Source: Candidatus Ancillula kalotermitis (GTDB lineage: Bacteria; Actinomycetota; Actinomycetes; Actinomycetales; Bifidobacteriaceae). Taken from it: 32,041 nt of DNA. The stretch spans positions 1 through 32,041 of the forward strand of contig JAISRT010000001.1 of NCBI GenBank assembly GCA_031273495.1. The letters run 5' to 3'. The notes beneath the pieces were generated by a model. That model worked only from the letters and a program-made list of their open reading frames with translations. It had not been told where the DNA came from and did not search any database. Within the stretch, counting starts at the first letter, position 1; the number at the start of each line of letters is the position of its first letter. The position numbers were made by a program, and so were the translations under genes. Positions 22,380 to 31,868 of this stretch are shown in pieces.

Positions 22380-25300
22380 TCATGGCGTCACTCCCGCGGT
22401 GAGGCTGACCAGTTCGAAGTTGTCCCCGATCTTCTCGCGGGTGCTGATGTCTTTGATGAGCAGTGCCAACGCTTTCGAATACTTTTGCATGTCGCGTCCC
22501 TCACTCGTCTGGGTGTTGAAACGGCTGACCGCAGCGCCTATTGCCTGTTCATGCTCCCGACAAGTTTCCCGCATTTTCGTTAAGCTCGCACGCGGGTCGT
22601 CGAACCCGATGAGCGTCTCACCTGCCGAGTCAGTGGTTATGAGGTAGTGCGGGTGCAGCCACTTACCCCTCTCAGACTCACTCGCGCCAGAGTCAGACGG
22701 TGCCGAATAATGCCTTAGCGTCCAGAAGGTCAAGTCTTCATCAAGTGCGCAATGTAATCCAAAAGGTTTCCGGTCAAGCTCAATGCGCTCTTGGGGAGTC
22801 AAACTCTTGATGAACCGCATTAAGTCAGCGCGGAAATCCCCGAGCCCAAGGTCCATAATCGAAATCCCTGCCCCCATCTCCTCAAGGTCAACAATCTCAT
22901 TCTGGAGCCGTTTAAGTTGCGTGGCGCGAAACTGCAAGTCCTGGTCATCCTGGTTCAGCAAATTGTCGTCACCAGTTGCGGAGAGACTCAGTATTTTCAT
23001 GCGCCGTTGAACCCTTTCTTGAAGGTTGAGATACTGGTCAAGGTCACTTTCCGGCCAGAAGTTCACCATTTGCACTTGAGTATTTGGCGACCCGATACGG
23101 TCAATGCGTCCAAATCGCTGAATAATGCGCACCGGGTTCCAGTGGATGTCGTAATTGACCACAAAATCGCAGTCTTGAAGATTCTGTCCCTCCGAAATGA
23201 CGTCAGTAGTCACCAAAATGTCAATGTCACGCCCAGAATCCTCACCCCTCATCTTCGCCACCGGTGCGAAATCGCGTAGTAATTCGTTGAAGCCATCATT
23301 TTTTACAGGACTTGTGCACTGAGTTTGTTGCCCTGTGATGAGTGCAAGTGTGAAATCGCTAGACAGACTACTGGATAAATTGTGGTAAAGATATTGGGCA
23401 GTGTCGGCGAATGCGGTGAAAATCAGCACTTTACGATTCTTGGCGTTAATGGGATGCTTAATCTTCTTGGCGATGATCCTCTGCAACTCTTGAAGCTTAT
23501 TGTCATATTCATCTCGCAATTCAACAGTCTGAGATAGAATTTCGGACAGACTCGTAATGTCTAACTCTAAGTCGTGCAAATACATTTTAACGTTCATATC
23601 ACCCATCTCGATCGGATTGTGTGCACTGGAACTCTTTTTCTGGTTCATTGTAAAACTCTCAACCAGTTCAAAATCGTCGCTACTAAAGTCTTCTGTGGGG
23701 TCAAACTCAACCGCTTCAAGTGTAGTACTGTAATTCTGGTTATGCTCGAGAAAACCTGTGAGCCTCTTCTCAACGTAGCGGTAATACTCTAAAACTCTAC
23801 TAACAGTCTTGACAAATGCGTCCGTTGAACTTTCGAGCCTCTTAAGCATATTGACGCGCATAAAATTCTGCACACCGCGCTCACGACCACGCCGTCCCGC
23901 CCCTGAAAACTCGTCTGACACTTCATACTTCACCAACTCATCTTCATAGACATAGTTAATCGGGGCATACGCACTCATATTCAAAGACTCCAACCGGTCA
24001 AAAAGCTCGTGATATGACAAGCCGTCACCGATTTTGGGGGCAACTGAAATGGGTGCAAGTCGCTCGGGGAACTTCCCCACTGCGTCGATATCATAACTGT
24101 TCTCAATGTGGCGCCGACTCCTCGCAATTGTCACTGAGTCAAGGAGCTCAAAAAACTCGTCAGTGAGCAGGTGTAAAAGGTTCTTCGTGGTCTGCTCGTC
24201 TGGTGTGAAAGTCTTCCACTGGGAATACGCCGCCTGTGCCTGTTTGAAAATGTGTTTGACTGAACTGTTGAAGTCTGTGAACTCGTTCAGGCGCTCAAGG
24301 TCACCATAATGTGCAATCGCTAGTTGATTCGCGAGGTCTGAGAAATTGTTGTTCACTGGTGTCGCCGAAAGCATGAGCACCCGACTGGGAACGCCTTTAG
24401 AAATAACCTTCTCAATCAACTGTTCGTAGCGCCCCCCGTTGCCGTTGCGGAAATTGTGCGACTCGTCAATGACCACCAAATCGTAGTTCCCCCAGTTGAC
24501 TCGACTGAGATCGATACCGTTACTAATGCCCTTCTCGCGCGTCAAATCGGTGTGAAAGAGGACATCATAATTGAAGTGGTCCTCCTGCAAATTGTTGCTA
24601 GTATAGTTCGAACGCCAAGTGTTCCAGTTTTCGGCAAGTTTCTTCGGGCAAAGCACTAAAACATTCTTGCCGCGGTCCTCATAATATTTAATCACACTGA
24701 GCGCTGTGAAAGTTTTACCGAGCCCAACGCTGTCTGCAAGTATACAGCCTCGGTATTTCTCGAGCTTCTTGATGATGATTTTCGACGCGTCCTCTTGGAA
24801 GTCATAGAGCATTTTGAACACTTTCGAGCTCTGATACTGGTCGAGGTTCGTGTCGTCAAGTTCGCTTTCAATTTCGTCGAGATAGTTCTGGAAGATGTGA
24901 TATAATGTGAAGTAGTAAATGAATTGGGGAGAGTTCTCCTTATAGGCGTAGTCAAGTGTTGTTGCCAGTTCCTCGGTAACATCAGTGGTTTTGTCGTGCC
25001 GGTCACTGAAAATCTGGTCAAAAGTGTCCTTAAGGTGCGGCACTATTTCGTTACTCTCTTTGGTGATAATATTACTGATTGCATTGGTGTGGGTCCGCTT
25101 AAGGTTCGAAGTCGTGAAGCCATTTATTGGCCAGTAGGTCGCCGTATCGGTTGAAATCATCGTGTTGATTGGGGCGTTCTCGAGCAGGGATTTGAACTGT
25201 GTCCTCTCGCGCACCCATTTTGCACATCGTTTCGCCAGGTCAGAGCTTTGTAAATCGTTCTTGAGCCTCAACTCGAACATATCGCCAAAAATTTCACGTT

Positions 25301-25529
25301 CACGCAGTATTTGGAACTCCTTATCGGGCTTCGACTTCTCAAGGACGTCAATAAATGTCGGCTCAGTGAAGAGGAATTGGAACTTTTGCACACTTTCTAG
25401 CTCGGCGTGCAGTGCTTGGTAAGTGTAAATTGAGAAGCGTGGTGCCGCCACTTGTAGGACTTTCGACTGCGTTAAGGCGCTCTTTAAATCGTCGAGTACA
25501 CAGTTGTTGACCTGATCAAAAACTTCCAC
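22380..25529 (-). CDS. SNF2-type SF2 helicase with possible degenerate PLD-like N-terminal domain
   Basis: ADSVGLGKTFTALSVIKYY (Walker A), VVIDESHNFRN, MLSATPVNN, VLIFTAFADTAQYL, TTDVISEGQNLQDCDFVVNYDIHWNPVRIIQRFGRIDRIGS. GTG start. Confidence 0.88.
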   Translation of the reverse strand: MEVFDQVNNCVLDDLKSALTQSKVLQVAAPRFSIYTYQALHAELESVQKFQFLFTEPTFIDVLEKSKPDKEFQILREREIFGDMFELRLKNDLQSSDLAKRCAKWVRERTQFKSLLENAPINTMISTDTATYWPINGFTTSNLKRTHTNAISNIITKESNEIVPHLKDTFDQIFSDRHDKTTDVTEELATTLDYAYKENSPQFIYYFTLYHIFQNYLDEIESELDDTNLDQYQSSKVFKMLYDFQEDASKIIIKKLEKYRGCILADSVGLGKTFTALSVIKYYEDRGKNVLVLCPKKLAENWNTWRSNYTSNNLQEDHFNYDVLFHTDLTREKGISNGIDLSRVNWGNYDLVVIDESHNFRNGNGGRYEQLIEKVISKGVPSRVLMLSATPVNNNFSDLANQLAIAHYGDLERLNEFTDFNSSVKHIFKQAQAAYSQWKTFTPDEQTTKNLLHLLTDEFFELLDSVTIARSRRHIENSYDIDAVGKFPERLAPISVAPKIGDGLSYHELFDRLESLNMSAYAPINYVYEDELVKYEVSDEFSGAGRRGRERGVQNFMRVNMLKRLESSTDAFVKTVSRVLEYYRYVEKRLTGFLEHNQNYSTTLEAVEFDPTEDFSSDDFELVESFTMNQKKSSSAHNPIEMGDMNVKMYLHDLELDITSLSEILSQTVELRDEYDNKLQELQRIIAKKIKHPINAKNRKVLIFTAFADTAQYLYHNLSSSLSSDFTLALITGQQTQCTSPVKNDGFNELLRDFAPVAKMRGEDSGRDIDILVTTDVISEGQNLQDCDFVVNYDIHWNPVRIIQRFGRIDRIGSPNTQVQMVNFWPESDLDQYLNLQERVQRRMKILSLSATGDDNLLNQDDQDLQFRATQLKRLQNEIVDLEEMGAGISIMDLGLGDFRADLMRFIKSLTPQERIELDRKPFGLHCALDEDLTFWTLRHYSAPSDSGASESERGKWLHPHYLITTDSAGETLIGFDDPRASLTKMRETCREHEQAIGAAVSRFNTQTSEGRDMQKYSKALALLIKDISTREKIGDNFELVSLTAGVTP

Positions 25530-25536
25530 ATTAAAC

Positions 25537-27072
25537 CTAACGATACCTTGAGCGCATAGTCCTTCTCCGGCGCATCAGCTTAGTATTAACCCCCGCCTCA
25601 ATTGTGAACGTCACATCTTCGAGATAGTCAAAATGCTCGAGCAGACGCCTACTATAACGCATAATTTGGGGTATTGTCAAAGCGCCCTCAGTGTACAAGT
25701 CCTCATCGATTTGGATAAAGTCACGCATCTCATTGTATGTCGAGTCGAACAAATAGCGCTTCGTTTGCCCTGCACCCGCGGTCCAGTTGTCACTTTGGAA
25801 GCAGTCTGCGAAGAACTTCTCAGTCGAGTTTTGGTAGACGATGTGCACCAGTATTTTCCAGAACTCCCGCCAACTGCCGATCCAAACTGCGTTATCCTGG
25901 AGCCAAACGCCCTCTGGTGTGCGTCCAGTGAAGTTAATCTCATTGTCGAAGTAGTATCTCGTCCCAGACTTGCCCAGTTTCGTCTGTATTTTGCGCACCT
26001 TCGGCTTAGCGTTTTGCGGCTTGTCAGTGTGGGCACCTGATTCCGTCTCACTCCCGTAGATTTTGGCGGCGTCAATCATCAAGTTCCAGAAGTCTTCCTC
26101 AGTCAAATTGGCGTCAAGCACACTAAAATACAGTTTCTTGATGTAGAAGTAGACCTCATCTTTTCGCAACGTCCGCTCTCGCTCAAGTAATTTTCGGTGC
26201 TTCAACTCGCGCATTGCAAACTCGCGCAAGAACTCGTCTAGGGTTGACTTTTCACGGCCACTTTCAAGGGTTTTAGTGCAGAGTTTTATCAACTCTAGCC
26301 AGTATTTTTCGTAGTATTGAGTCTGCTCGTCTAGTGATTTGCTCATCAACAAAAAGTTCCGCACCATATCGCTACTTGAGAGGTTTAAGCCAGTCGCATT
26401 TATCGACTCGAAGACATCTTGAGGGTTCTCGTAGGCCTTATTTTTGTCGAGCTCTATCACCACGAAGTTGACATTTTCAAGCGCACTAAATATCTGTTCA
26501 ATTGTGAAGTGGGAACGGCGAAGATGAGTCTGAAAGGCGCGGAAAGCTTTGGCAACCAGATTGCGAGTGGTCCCCTCGTCAGCGGCATAATATTTCCGGT
26601 ACGCATTAGTGAAGAAGTTCAAATACTTGTCGTCATCATTTTGAAGTTGTAGCCTTAACTTTATCTCGTTGTCACTGATAACCTCCTGCACCAGAAGCTT
26701 AACCATCTGCGCGCGGAACTTTTTCTCACGGGACGCTTCAAGTAGGGCAATGAGCAAAATGTAGAGTGAGGTGAGCCTCTGCTGGCCGTCCACGATTAAG
26801 TACTGCTCATGGCGAAACTTCAACTCTTGCGGTATCAAGACGATAGTCCCGAGAAAGTGCTCCCACTCTTGATCTTCAGCCATCTTCTCGCAGAGCTTCG
26901 TCACGTCTGCGAACAATTGCTCAATTTGTTCACGCTTCCAGGAGTAGGGGCGCTGATAAACGGGCACTAGAAACTGTCGGTCACCATCACCTGGCAACAA
27001 CAGCTCAAGGAAGTTCTTCTGATATGCTCTAATTCTCAGCCACTTTCCACTCCCCTGGTATTCGTTTGTCAT
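25537..27072 (-). CDS. DUF262 (GmrSD N-terminal-like/ParB-fold) protein
   Basis: FLVPVYQRPYSWKREQIEQLFADV and IVDGQQRLTSLYILLIALLEA motifs. Start ATG 27072 (MTNEYQGSGKW), since residues before it in the tracked ORF lie out of frame within the upstream gene. Confidence 0.82.
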   Translation of the reverse strand: MTNEYQGSGKWLRIRAYQKNFLELLLPGDGDRQFLVPVYQRPYSWKREQIEQLFADVTKLCEKMAEDQEWEHFLGTIVLIPQELKFRHEQYLIVDGQQRLTSLYILLIALLEASREKKFRAQMVKLLVQEVISDNEIKLRLQLQNDDDKYLNFFTNAYRKYYAADEGTTRNLVAKAFRAFQTHLRRSHFTIEQIFSALENVNFVVIELDKNKAYENPQDVFESINATGLNLSSSDMVRNFLLMSKSLDEQTQYYEKYWLELIKLCTKTLESGREKSTLDEFLREFAMRELKHRKLLERERTLRKDEVYFYIKKLYFSVLDANLTEEDFWNLMIDAAKIYGSETESGAHTDKPQNAKPKVRKIQTKLGKSGTRYYFDNEINFTGRTPEGVWLQDNAVWIGSWREFWKILVHIVYQNSTEKFFADCFQSDNWTAGAGQTKRYLFDSTYNEMRDFIQIDEDLYTEGALTIPQIMRYSRRLLEHFDYLEDVTFTIEAGVNTKLMRRRRTMRSRYR

Positions 27073-28627
27073 TGTCGAAGACGCAGCCGATTTTGAACAC
27101 TTTTCGCGGGTCGGACTTAAATTGCTCAGTGTAGCCCTGCTCCTCAATCTGCTGCAACGCGTCGTCAGCAGTCCCGTTGCCATCTAATTTGAACTCGAAG
27201 ACGAAGATTGCTCGCTTGGTTTTCATGACAAGGTCAGTGCGCCCCCTAGAATTCTTGACCTCGCTCTCGATATTGCGCCCGAGAAGTGTGAAGAGTAGGA
27301 AGAATATGGTCTGGTAATGTTTCTCCTGCTTGTTGTTCAAGTCGTAGGGAATTGCCGCGTAGAATGACTGAAGTCGAGTGAAAAAGCTGTCGAAGTCCTC
27401 GCTGTCAAGGTCGTAGAGAAATAAGTGGTAGTTGAATGATGCCAAATTCGCCTCGTAACGCACTTCGGCTAGTAAATTCTCGATGAACCCGAACTTGACC
27501 TCCTCGTTGGGGAACCCTAGAAGCAGACTGCCGTAGTCGTCAACACCTTTAATTGTCAGGTACCCCGTCTGATACAGTAATGCAATTGGGACATCTTGCC
27601 CGATCCGATACAGGTCAATATCATCGGGCATAAGTGGTATTAGTTTCTCGAAGTTCCCGAAGTCATACTGCCGCTCGCGCAACTCTTCCACAAGGAATGT
27701 CGGCGTTCCAGTCTCGTACCAGTAGTTTCTGTACATGTGACTGCTAAAAGTGTTGATAGTGCTGAACGGGTTGTAAACACTCACGCTCAAGTCCTCGGAG
27801 AAGTGGTAGCCGTTATAATGCTTCCTCAACTTTTCTAGTGCCTCTTCTTCGGTCTGCTTATTATACTCGGCGAGCAGTTTAATCTCGGGCTTGAAGTTCT
27901 CCTCGAGTTCTTCTTGCATAATGCCACAGATTCCCGCATATTTCGGCAACATCGAGATGTCACGGAGCTGGTTTAGATCGCTAAAAATTGACACTTTGCT
28001 GAATTTGGACACGCCAGTCAAGATTGCGAACCTGATGTAGGCATCTGAACTCTTGAGGACGACGTAGAAACTCTTCAGGAGCATTAACATATCGATGTTA
28101 TCAGTCTTCGCCTCCACTTTACCCAGGAGTGGCTTATCATATTCGTCGATGAGCACAACCACCTGCTGCCCTGTCTGCTCGTATGCCCTGCGGATGAGCC
28201 CCTCAAGACGAGTTCCGTATGCACTTTCAGCATTATCACTGCCGTAAATCTTCTCGTATCCTGAAAGTATAGTGTCAAGGCGGCCTTCAAGTGCCGAAAT
28301 CCCCTCGAAATACTGGCCAACGTTGAAGTCAAAGTGCAGAACAGGGTGCTTGACCCACTCGGACTCCAATTTCTCAATCTCGAGCCCCGCGAACAGGTCT
28401 TTATTCCCCTCGAAATACTCGCGCAGAGTGCTGATTAACAAGGATTTACCGAAACGTCGGGGGCGCGCCAAGAAGTTGAACCTGGCGTCATCATTCGCCA
28501 AAGCATACACAAGCGCAGTCTTGTCCACATAGACATTTTCACGCCTCCTGATCACGGAAAAAGTCTGAATGCCCAGCGGCATCCTACGCTTTATTGTCCC
28601 GTCCGAAGTGTTGATACTGTTGGTCAT
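27029..28627 (-). CDS. AAA-ATPase-like protein with C-terminal PD-(D/E)XK nuclease domain (PF09820/PF08011-type)
   Basis: IQTFSVIRRRENVYVDKTALVYAL, FLARPRRFGKSLLISTLREYFEG, VVLIDEYDKPLLGK; C-terminal GRTDLVMKTKRAIFVFEFKLDG (D...ExK). Confidence 0.88.
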   Translation of the reverse strand: MTNSINTSDGTIKRRMPLGIQTFSVIRRRENVYVDKTALVYALANDDARFNFLARPRRFGKSLLISTLREYFEGNKDLFAGLEIEKLESEWVKHPVLHFDFNVGQYFEGISALEGRLDTILSGYEKIYGSDNAESAYGTRLEGLIRRAYEQTGQQVVVLIDEYDKPLLGKVEAKTDNIDMLMLLKSFYVVLKSSDAYIRFAILTGVSKFSKVSIFSDLNQLRDISMLPKYAGICGIMQEELEENFKPEIKLLAEYNKQTEEEALEKLRKHYNGYHFSEDLSVSVYNPFSTINTFSSHMYRNYWYETGTPTFLVEELRERQYDFGNFEKLIPLMPDDIDLYRIGQDVPIALLYQTGYLTIKGVDDYGSLLLGFPNEEVKFGFIENLLAEVRYEANLASFNYHLFLYDLDSEDFDSFFTRLQSFYAAIPYDLNNKQEKHYQTIFFLLFTLLGRNIESEVKNSRGRTDLVMKTKRAIFVFEFKLDGNGTADDALQQIEEQGYTEQFKSDPRKVFKIGCVFDNDKRIPGEWKVAEN

Positions 28628-28650: not shown

Positions 28651-28955
28651 TGTCACCCTTGGGCGGCGGTGTCCGTCCCGTGTCACCCTTGGGCTTGTCC
28701 CGAGGGTCCAGGGGGGGTCAGTGTGCACTGGATCCTCGGCATAAAGCCAAGGATGACAATAATGCAAAGCCAAGGATGACAATAATGCAAAGCCAAGGAT
28801 GACATGAGGGCGCGGTGCGTTTGTGTCACCCTTGGGCGGCGGTGTCCGTCCCGTGTCACCCTTGGGCTTGTCCCGAGGGTCCAGGGAGGTCAGTGCGTTT
28901 GTGTCACCCCTCGGCATAAAGCCAAGGGCAGGCGCGGGCTTGTCCCGAGGGTCCA
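28651..28955. repeat. Intergenic repeat cluster D; right flank of the helicase operon
   Basis: Composite module twice (28651-28710, 28824-28883), 23-bp tandem GCCAAGGATGACAATAATGCAAA at 28746, 28769 and 28792, and the variant TGTCACCCCTCGGCATAAAGCCAAGGGCAGGCGCGGGCTTGTCCCGAGGGTCCA at 28902-28955. Confidence 0.92.
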
Positions 28956-29653
28956 GTGAGGCAGGGTACCACCTCCGGTCGGGCTTTCTTCGCGAACTCG
29001 ATGATGAACATGAGGAGGACCGCGACTAAGATGAAGATCACCGCCCAGAAGAGTTGTGGTGCAATTGCATCATTAACGAACGCCTCAACAATGCTTTTGA
29101 GTGCCTGATTTTGCTCCGGCTCTAAATAGTTGCCGACAACATGGTCAGAATACGTCCTGAACCCGTCGAAGAACTTGAAGAAGACTGCGGGAACCAGTAG
29201 CACGAGCCCCGAGGCGAGCGTAACGTTCTGGATAAGTCGCATCATCCGCACCTTTGACCCCCAGGAGATGTGAATGAGCAAGAATGTGAGCAGTAACACG
29301 GCAATAATCAGCACCTCGTTAAGAAGGTTGAGCTCCTGGACCTCGTCTTGTATTGTCAGCACAAAGCCTATTAACTCGGACGGTAAGCGTTCCTGGGCGA
29401 TAAGGCGATCGTAGGAATCGGGGTCATTATACAGTTCCCAGACGGCGTCATTAACCATCTCTTCGCAGTGCTCAATCTCGACAGTTTCACAATAATGCGC
29501 ACTCTCAATCAGGTAAACCGTGTGGTCAAGCGATGTTGTGGTCGAAATCAGTGAACTCGAAAATATCAGCATCGGTATGCAAATTGTCAGCGCGATAGCA
29601 ATGAGGAACTGGGAAACGCGGGGGTCTGGCTGCTTGGCCTCAATATACTCCAT
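28904..29653 (-). CDS. Multi-pass membrane protein (DUF1461-like topology), C-terminus encoded by a repeat
   Basis: About four hydrophobic segments; ATG 29653 one nt after the GT2 stop (TAGAATG). C-terminal LTGPSGQARACPWLYAEG is a translation of the repeat. Confidence 0.65.
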   Translation of the reverse strand: MEYIEAKQPDPRVSQFLIAIALTICIPMLIFSSSLISTTTSLDHTVYLIESAHYCETVEIEHCEEMVNDAVWELYNDPDSYDRLIAQERLPSELIGFVLTIQDEVQELNLLNEVLIIAVLLLTFLLIHISWGSKVRMMRLIQNVTLASGLVLLVPAVFFKFFDGFRTYSDHVVGNYLEPEQNQALKSIVEAFVNDAIAPQLFWAVIFILVAVLLMFIIEFAKKARPEVVPCLTGPSGQARACPWLYAEG

Positions 29654-29654
29654 T

Positions 29655-31868
29655 CTAGCCACCTGCCCTTCCTGCCGTGACGAAATAGTAGTTCGGGTCA
29701 CCGGGCATTGGACTTTTCGCGAACATCACTAGAGTGTCCCATGAGCGCGCATTGTCAACAATAGACTTAATGTCGGTCGCGGCACCAACGTCAAGCACAG
29801 TATACGTGAATTTCGCAGTGTTCGTCGCGATTTCAACCGCGTCACCCTTCTTGAGTTGGTTAAGCTTTATGAACTTCGTGGGGTCATCAGTACTAATCAC
29901 TGTCGCGTCAGGCTCACCAGGGTCAGCGGAGTTCTGCACAATATAAGCAGTGGACGCCTTCTTATACATTAACGGCTCCTCAATATCAATACTCGGGAAT
30001 TTGATAGCACCGATAATATGCCCTGGGATGTATTTCTGCGTCTCCTCAGGCGGTTTCTCGGCATCTGGTGCACTTGAATCAATATAATTGCGCAGGTTAA
30101 AGCTCTCCATCACGTCATCGAGCACACGGTCAGACTGCAAATGTGGGAAAATGTCATTGTGAATCTTGCTCTCGAGATAACGTGAACCGAAACTATACAC
30201 TGACACACTTGCGAGCGCCGCGATTAGCAGTGGTGAAACGACATAGCGCACAATACGCAGCCCCCGTTTGTGATTCGCCTCCCAACTTTGCAATGTCGAC
30301 AACTTCTCCGCGGGTTTATTGCTCAGTAACATCAGTTTGAAGCCCATTAAGCTCGGGAAAACAATGAGGAACACCGGCAGAATGCTCTTGTCAAGCACTG
30401 TGGAAATGACTATCAGGGTGACTGCGAAAACAATCTCTTGACGCGTGGACCAGATCGCCGCCCAGAGCGAAACGTGGTGGGATTCCTTCGGCGTGACGAT
30501 GAACTTGGCTTTGCGCCCCAGTAGTGAAAAGAAGGACGCCTTGAGCGAAATGTAGAACATCGAACCGTAGAGCAAGAAGACGTAGAACAGGTAGTACAGA
30601 ATTGGCATCGGACGCATCCAGCGGCTGTGGAAAATCGCGTCGTTGACCATCGGTGCGCAGAGGAATATTATCGTCGGAATCAACATCCACACCGGGTAGT
30701 GCAGAGAGTAGCCGTCCGCGGGGTAAATGATCACGTTCATAATCACATACAGGAAGAAGAATGTTGTCAGTGGTAGTGAATACGTGAAGAGCACAATGTC
30801 AAGCTTCTCGAACCAACTCATCCGCGACTTGATGATCTTGCCAGTGTAAGTCTTGATGAATTCCATATTGCCCTGAGTCCACTTCGAATGCCGCTTTTTG
30901 AACGCCTCATAGTCCACCGGATACTGCTCCTCACACTCGATTGACTCCGCGAACCCCACGAAATAGCCCTGCTCACGCGCCTCGATTGAGAAGCACAAAT
31001 CTTCTGCCACAGTATGCGGGAAGCGACCAACCGCCTCATAACACGCTCTCGAAATCATAGCACCGTGCCCTAGCAGGCTGAGGAACCCGGAATCAGTCTT
31101 GATGCTCTGGTATACTGGCCAGTGCGAATCCACACCTTTGGCGAACATTGACATAAAGCGGTTCTCATTACGGGTGGCGATGTGATTGCACTGCAAAATC
31201 CCGAGGTTGTCATAGTGCTCGAAGTATTTTAGGCAGTTCGTCACGAAGTCATGCGGCAAAATCTCGTCCGAGTCGATAATTGCGAAATAGTCGTAGTCGG
31301 TGCGGTGTTGCAAGTAATTGTTCAAGTTCCCGGCCTTGAAACCACTGCGATCCTTGCGCCGGTAGACCTCAAGATTATGCTCAAGAGCGAAGGCGTCGAC
31401 GCGCGCTAAATACTCCGGGTCAGAACTATCGTCTAGTATCACAGTCTTCACATTCTCATAGTCCTGCACCATTGAACGCGACAGGGAGTCCTCAATAATG
31501 TCATCGCATGTTGTGTAAACTAGGACGACGCGCTTACCTTGTGGGGTTGGGGTGTTCATAATCAACTGCTCCGTGGAACTTATTTTGCGCCGACGGTTGA
31601 GCCAGTAATTGAACACGTAGAGAATGTCCTTAATGCCGTTGAGCCAGAAATACGAGATGAACAGTGCGTTGAAAACTAGCAGGACATCCAACCATAACTG
31701 GTGCTCCTCATAGTCGGCATCAAACACTTCAGCGACGAACGGCACGAATGTGAACCCGATTAGCACTGCCCAGAGAATGACCAATATCACATAAAAGCGG
31801 GGGTCCTTGCGGATCCTCGCACCTCCAGGCACGAACTGTCTGTCGAATTCTTGCGGTGCCATTGTCAT
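29655..31868 (-). CDS. Membrane-bound processive GT2 glycosyltransferase (cellulose synthase-like) with extracytoplasmic sortase-like C-terminal domain
   Basis: VILDDSSDPEY, FAIIDSDEILPHDF, AEDLCFSIEAREQGY, KRHSKWTQGN; multiple TMs; C-terminal GAIKFPSIDIEEPLMYK...PGEPD...LKKGDAVEIAT...FTYTVLDV. Confidence 0.85.
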   Translation of the reverse strand: MTMAPQEFDRQFVPGGARIRKDPRFYVILVILWAVLIGFTFVPFVAEVFDADYEEHQLWLDVLLVFNALFISYFWLNGIKDILYVFNYWLNRRRKISSTEQLIMNTPTPQGKRVVLVYTTCDDIIEDSLSRSMVQDYENVKTVILDDSSDPEYLARVDAFALEHNLEVYRRKDRSGFKAGNLNNYLQHRTDYDYFAIIDSDEILPHDFVTNCLKYFEHYDNLGILQCNHIATRNENRFMSMFAKGVDSHWPVYQSIKTDSGFLSLLGHGAMISRACYEAVGRFPHTVAEDLCFSIEAREQGYFVGFAESIECEEQYPVDYEAFKKRHSKWTQGNMEFIKTYTGKIIKSRMSWFEKLDIVLFTYSLPLTTFFFLYVIMNVIIYPADGYSLHYPVWMLIPTIIFLCAPMVNDAIFHSRWMRPMPILYYLFYVFLLYGSMFYISLKASFFSLLGRKAKFIVTPKESHHVSLWAAIWSTRQEIVFAVTLIVISTVLDKSILPVFLIVFPSLMGFKLMLLSNKPAEKLSTLQSWEANHKRGLRIVRYVVSPLLIAALASVSVYSFGSRYLESKIHNDIFPHLQSDRVLDDVMESFNLRNYIDSSAPDAEKPPEETQKYIPGHIIGAIKFPSIDIEEPLMYKKASTAYIVQNSADPGEPDATVISTDDPTKFIKLNQLKKGDAVEIATNTAKFTYTVLDVGAATDIKSIVDNARSWDTLVMFAKSPMPGDPNYYFVTAGRAGG

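Follow-up and report, generated by a model that had tools for sequence, protein, structure and literature searches.

One reading frame in the stretch of DNA that we analyzed (32,041 nucleotides, here called the window) encodes a GT2 synthase with intact motifs and, behind it, a domain that is homologous to sortases but has lost all three catalytic residues. With modest confidence, we favor a reading in which the glucan synthase was acquired horizontally and then joined to a complete class-D-like sortase, whose catalysis was lost and whose fold took on a new use in binding or assembly.

A synthase and a sortase-like domain in a single gene

The features discussed below are listed in Table 1. 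The initial annotation had drawn attention to the stretch KYIPGHIIGAIK...FVTAGRAGG, and the coordinates it gave are exact: this stretch forms residues 612-737 (window 30035-29658) of an intact 737-aa open reading frame.

TABLE 1 Positions in the window of the fusion gene, its parts, and the downstream gene
Feature	Position	Strand	Basis
GT2 synthase-pseudosortase fusion gene	29655..31868	(-)	737 codons plus TAG stop, no internal stop; open reading frame; Pfam GT2 and Sortase in one frame
Putative GT2 beta-glucan synthase core, residues ~20-530	30279..31811	(-)	Alignment to relatives and to L. brevis Gtf-2; AlphaFold2 model; Foldseek
Extra region, residues ~531-611: predicted transmembrane (TM) helix ~539-561 and helical linker	30036..30278	(-)	Absent from closest GT2 relatives; hydropathy
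Sortase-like domain, residues 612-737, catalytic residues lost	29658..30035	(-)	Pfam, HMM, hhalign, Foldseek, no Cys
Orphan membrane protein, 249 aa, ~4 TMs by eye, one probable outside loop of ~90 aa	28904..29653	(-)	Sequence

The fusion is known from one genome, a MAG of 81% completeness (1.07 Mb in 62 contigs). A single MAG could hold a chimeric contig that joins two separate genes, but the join lies exactly in frame between two complete modules and the codon usage of the C-terminal part resembles that of the window, and we consider such an assembly artifact highly improbable. The GC3 of the synthase part is 0.69, that of the C-terminal part is 0.53 to 0.56, and that of the window genes is mostly 0.44 to 0.65; the gap between the two parts of the gene fits two origins.

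The synthase core

Pfam assigns residues ~20-530 to GT2 families. The core consists, in order, of two N-terminal TMs, a cytosolic GT-A domain, and further TMs with a gating-loop motif, and the expected motifs are all intact: DD146-147, DSDE199-202, AEDLC288-292, RHSKW326-330, and the gating loop FIVTPK456-461. The AlphaFold2 model of the core has pLDDT values mostly between 66 and 95, and its best match in Foldseek is the cellulose synthase BcsA (E, 1e-19).

The core is 47 to 59% identical to its 15 closest aligned relatives, which come from Saccharibacteria, the Actinoplanes group, Clostridia MAGs, and one viral contig. The best relatives are taxonomically scattered and also include Planosporangium, a Solirubrobacterales MAG, and a copy in Streptococcus sp. 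596553 that is interrupted. We found no strong relative in our samples of the host's class or phylum, or among its nearest relatives. These comparisons point to horizontal acquisition of the synthase, and we infer that the gene fusion came after the transfer.

Two observations on the relatives may be recorded here. One IMG/VR viral contig carries a GT2 synthase that belongs to the same branch (L101 2-1186; 61% identity over residues 149-528), which suggests carriage by phage or prophage. In one Saccharibacteria genome an in-frame stop splits the synthase gene, and the copy in Streptococcus sp. 596553 is broken by stop or frame changes (loci L033 8001-9515 and L042 8001-9370).

The only characterized homologues that we found are plasmid glucan synthases of lactic acid bacteria (Pediococcus and L. 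brevis), with ~35% identity over residues 20-530 (E, ~1e-88). Over the full core length, identity to L. brevis AZI09_12770 (CP016801) is 36%, and DSDE, AEDLC, RxSK, and FIVTPK are common to both proteins. AZI09_12770 is described as a transmembrane Gtf-2 beta-1,3-glucan synthase, of a kind to which pneumococcal Tts is related (PMC8951740). By its full-length homology and its catalytic and gating motifs, the core falls among the Gtf-2/Tts-type GT2 enzymes; it is probably a processive membrane beta-glucan synthase of the Gtf-2/Tts/Dps kind, and its product would be a glucan. The initial annotation had recognized a GT2 polysaccharide synthase, correctly, but not this particular kind.

Predicted topology of the C-terminal region

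The aligned relatives end at the core or within ~60 residues after it, and none has a further TM or a sortase match there. Among the aligned sequences, the window protein is the only one that continues, with a further TM helix, a linker of ~50 residues, and the sortase-like domain. The extra helix, predicted from hydropathy, follows a stretch rich in K/R. The chain of BcsA-like enzymes lies in the cytosol once it has left the last core TM, so that one additional TM would place the domain outside the cell. An outside C terminus had been proposed before; it is supported by the extra TM after a BcsA-like membrane domain and by the charge distribution. What had been described, however, was a bare C-terminal domain: the TM and linker, and with them the whole look of a membrane-anchored sortase, had been missed. 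Membrane sortases are built of a TM, a linker, and a barrel, and this shared layout suggests that an entire sortase gene, not a loose domain, was added to the synthase.

Because one TM would put the domain outside beside the exit of the channel, the domain might also be a structural or regulatory cap that stabilizes or gates the channel and has no ligand of its own. The closest synthases, however, are entirely without such a domain, and we regard a cap as improbable.

Homology of the domain to sortases

The isolated C terminus matches the Pfam family PF04203 (Sortase) with an E value of 8.4e-7 and 29.2 bits, above the curated cutoff of 26.6; the score is 27.3 bits for the full protein and 28.7 bits in a genome-wide search. 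An independent HMM built from intact sortases gave 26.0 bits, while 488 shuffled sequences gave at most 7.1 and the reversed sequence gave about 0. In hhalign, the probability was 91.6%, versus at most 1.4% for 40 shuffles. The core motifs PGE, FxxLxxLKKGD, and TYTV are kept. Thus, the sortase-like domain of the initial annotation holds up at the level of profiles.

In NCBIfam, the domain comes closest to class D sortase (30.8 bits; cutoff, 165) and SrtD (32.7 bits; cutoff, 140), with scores far below both cutoffs. Among 189 genomes of the host family, the nearest sortase is class-D-like, with His, Cys, and Arg intact (L054/L097); even this intact relative (L097) reaches just 61.7 bits against the class D cutoff of 165. 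Another class-D-like sortase of the family (L098 8889-10253), also with an intact triad, is likewise unusual in architecture: it has an extra N-terminal region with several TMs and an outside segment.

The structural evidence for a sortase is weaker. The model of residues 605-737 has a pLDDT of 44 and was built from an alignment in which one real sortase was the sole other row. The top 27 PDB hits of this low-confidence model in Foldseek were all sortases (probability, 0.66 to 1.00), but with E values of at least 0.03. At a pLDDT of 44, the assignment of a sortase fold rests mainly on the sequence profiles. These weak models, and their dependence on one real sortase, speak for some other beta fold that resembles sortases by chance; given that the Pfam cutoff was passed and that the HMM and hhalign results were far above those of the shuffles, we find this very hard to credit.

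Loss of the catalytic residues

Sortases need catalytic His, Cys, and Arg (PMC5148588). Aligned to intact sortases, the window domain has D661 (in STDD) in place of the His, F716-K718 in place of the Cys (a register uncertain by two residues), and Y727 in place of the Arg, which bears out the earlier claim that all three were lost. Without the residues of a transpeptidase, sortase chemistry is impossible. An active sortase that uses other residues is unlikely, since residues 531-737 contain no Cys at all; this idea shares the very low probability that we gave to an assembly artifact. The host genome still encodes one ordinary sortase of class E, in which the triad is complete.

Distribution of the fusion and the possibility of decay

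We found no other fusion among 395 genomes of the class, 397 of the phylum, and 343 of the Saccharibacteria class, in searches that required a strong match to the synthase, or in a scan of genome contigs, viral contigs, plasmids, and phages. In the open-access literature we found nothing relevant on inactive or pseudoenzyme sortase domains and no sortase-synthase fusion; the initial annotation's remark that no such described fusion was known to it agrees with both searches. In two Saccharibacteria, an intact sortase lies 0.8 to 3.4 kb from the synthase. The fusion might then reflect a conserved pairing of synthase and sortase genes, but the case is weak: the two sortases are unlike each other, and no such pairing occurs in the other genomes checked.

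The main rival to our reading is that the domain is a decaying passenger: loss of a stop codon in an eroding genome would have joined the synthase to a downstream sortase gene, and the sortase part would be under no selection and have no role. The host genome is small, all three catalytic residues are gone, and the fusion occurs in no other genome searched, all as expected of a passenger; genome erosion is also seen in termite-flagellate Bifidobacteriaceae (PMC11707648), which bears on the host if it belongs to that group. But the 207 codons past the synthase contain neither a stop nor a frameshift, and the core sortase motifs have been retained. In a neutral model, the joint probability that the triad is lost and 149 codons stay open is at most 0.6% at any divergence, although the model is a rough one that does not count indels, and the catalytic change may have been quick. 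We judge decay to be rather unlikely and prefer the reading in which the domain is reused.

The downstream gene and its neighborhood

The downstream gene begins, with its ATG, one base past the fusion gene's TAG, so translation of the two genes is probably coupled and their products made together. The downstream open reading frame has no convincing homologue in 189 host-family genomes, and no Pfam or NCBIfam family reaches its cutoff. We considered whether it corresponds to the small membrane protein found beside a family sortase, but there was no significant similarity. Its last ~28 residues (window 28907-28990) match an interspersed repeat with 13 other matches across the genome; a copy of the repeat seems to have entered the gene at its 3' end.

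Elsewhere in the window, three genes side by side at 22380-28627 (-) form a possible defense island. They encode an HKD plus Snf2-type helicase (PADLOC C3a139; E, 2e-114), a GmrSD_N/DUF262 protein, and a protein with AAA-ATPase_like and PDDEXK_9 domains. Xfp is also encoded in the window; together with the size of the genome and the structure of the family, it would fit a host among the termite-flagellate Bifidobacteriaceae, such as Ca. Ancillula (PMC11707648).

Proposed function and comparison with known systems

In the mechanism that we propose, a complete class-D-like sortase, with TM anchor, linker, and beta-barrel, would have been added to the 3' end of the synthase gene. The synthase would polymerize glucose from UDP-glucose at the cytosolic side and extrude the chain, and the extra TM would carry the sortase fold to the outer side, close to where the glucan channel opens. 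There the catalytically dead domain would most likely act as a noncatalytic binding or assembly module. Its ligand might be a sorting-signal peptide, a wall peptide, the emerging glucan, or the coupled downstream membrane protein, and binding would hold the polymer, or a partner, on the surface. A more specific version, possible but doubtful, is that the domain is a domesticated pseudoenzyme that serves as an outside receptor, binding a peptide signal or wall peptide and coupling polymer export to a surface protein or the cell wall. If the domain is used, a sortase barrel serves as a binding module, which suggests a way to tie a single-gene glucan synthase to the cell surface; if the receptor version is true, a naturally inactive sortase has taken on a new task.

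The window protein resembles the Gtf-2/Dps/Tts synthases (L. brevis AZI09_12770, the Pediococcus plasmid genes, and tts of pneumococcal type 37) in its homology over residues 20-530, motifs, membrane layout, and core length, with the likeness to Tts drawn through the literature. These synthases end after the core, whereas the extra TM and sortase-like domain belong to the window protein. Its own branch (Saccharibacteria and Actinoplanes; about 50 to 60% identity), which is uncharacterized, is closer to it. With class D sortases (SrtD; NF033746 and NF058671) and the intact class-D-like sortase of a family relative (L054/L097), the domain has in common the profile, the PGx turn, FxxLxxLKxGD, TYxV, and an N-terminal TM plus linker; unlike them, it lacks the His/Cys/Arg triad and sits behind a polysaccharide synthase. 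The GT-A core and TM arrangement (by Foldseek) and the VT(P)K gating-loop motif are like those of the cellulose synthase BcsA. The C terminus of BcsA is a cytosolic PilZ domain, whereas that of the window protein is an extra TM leading to a domain predicted to lie outside the cell.
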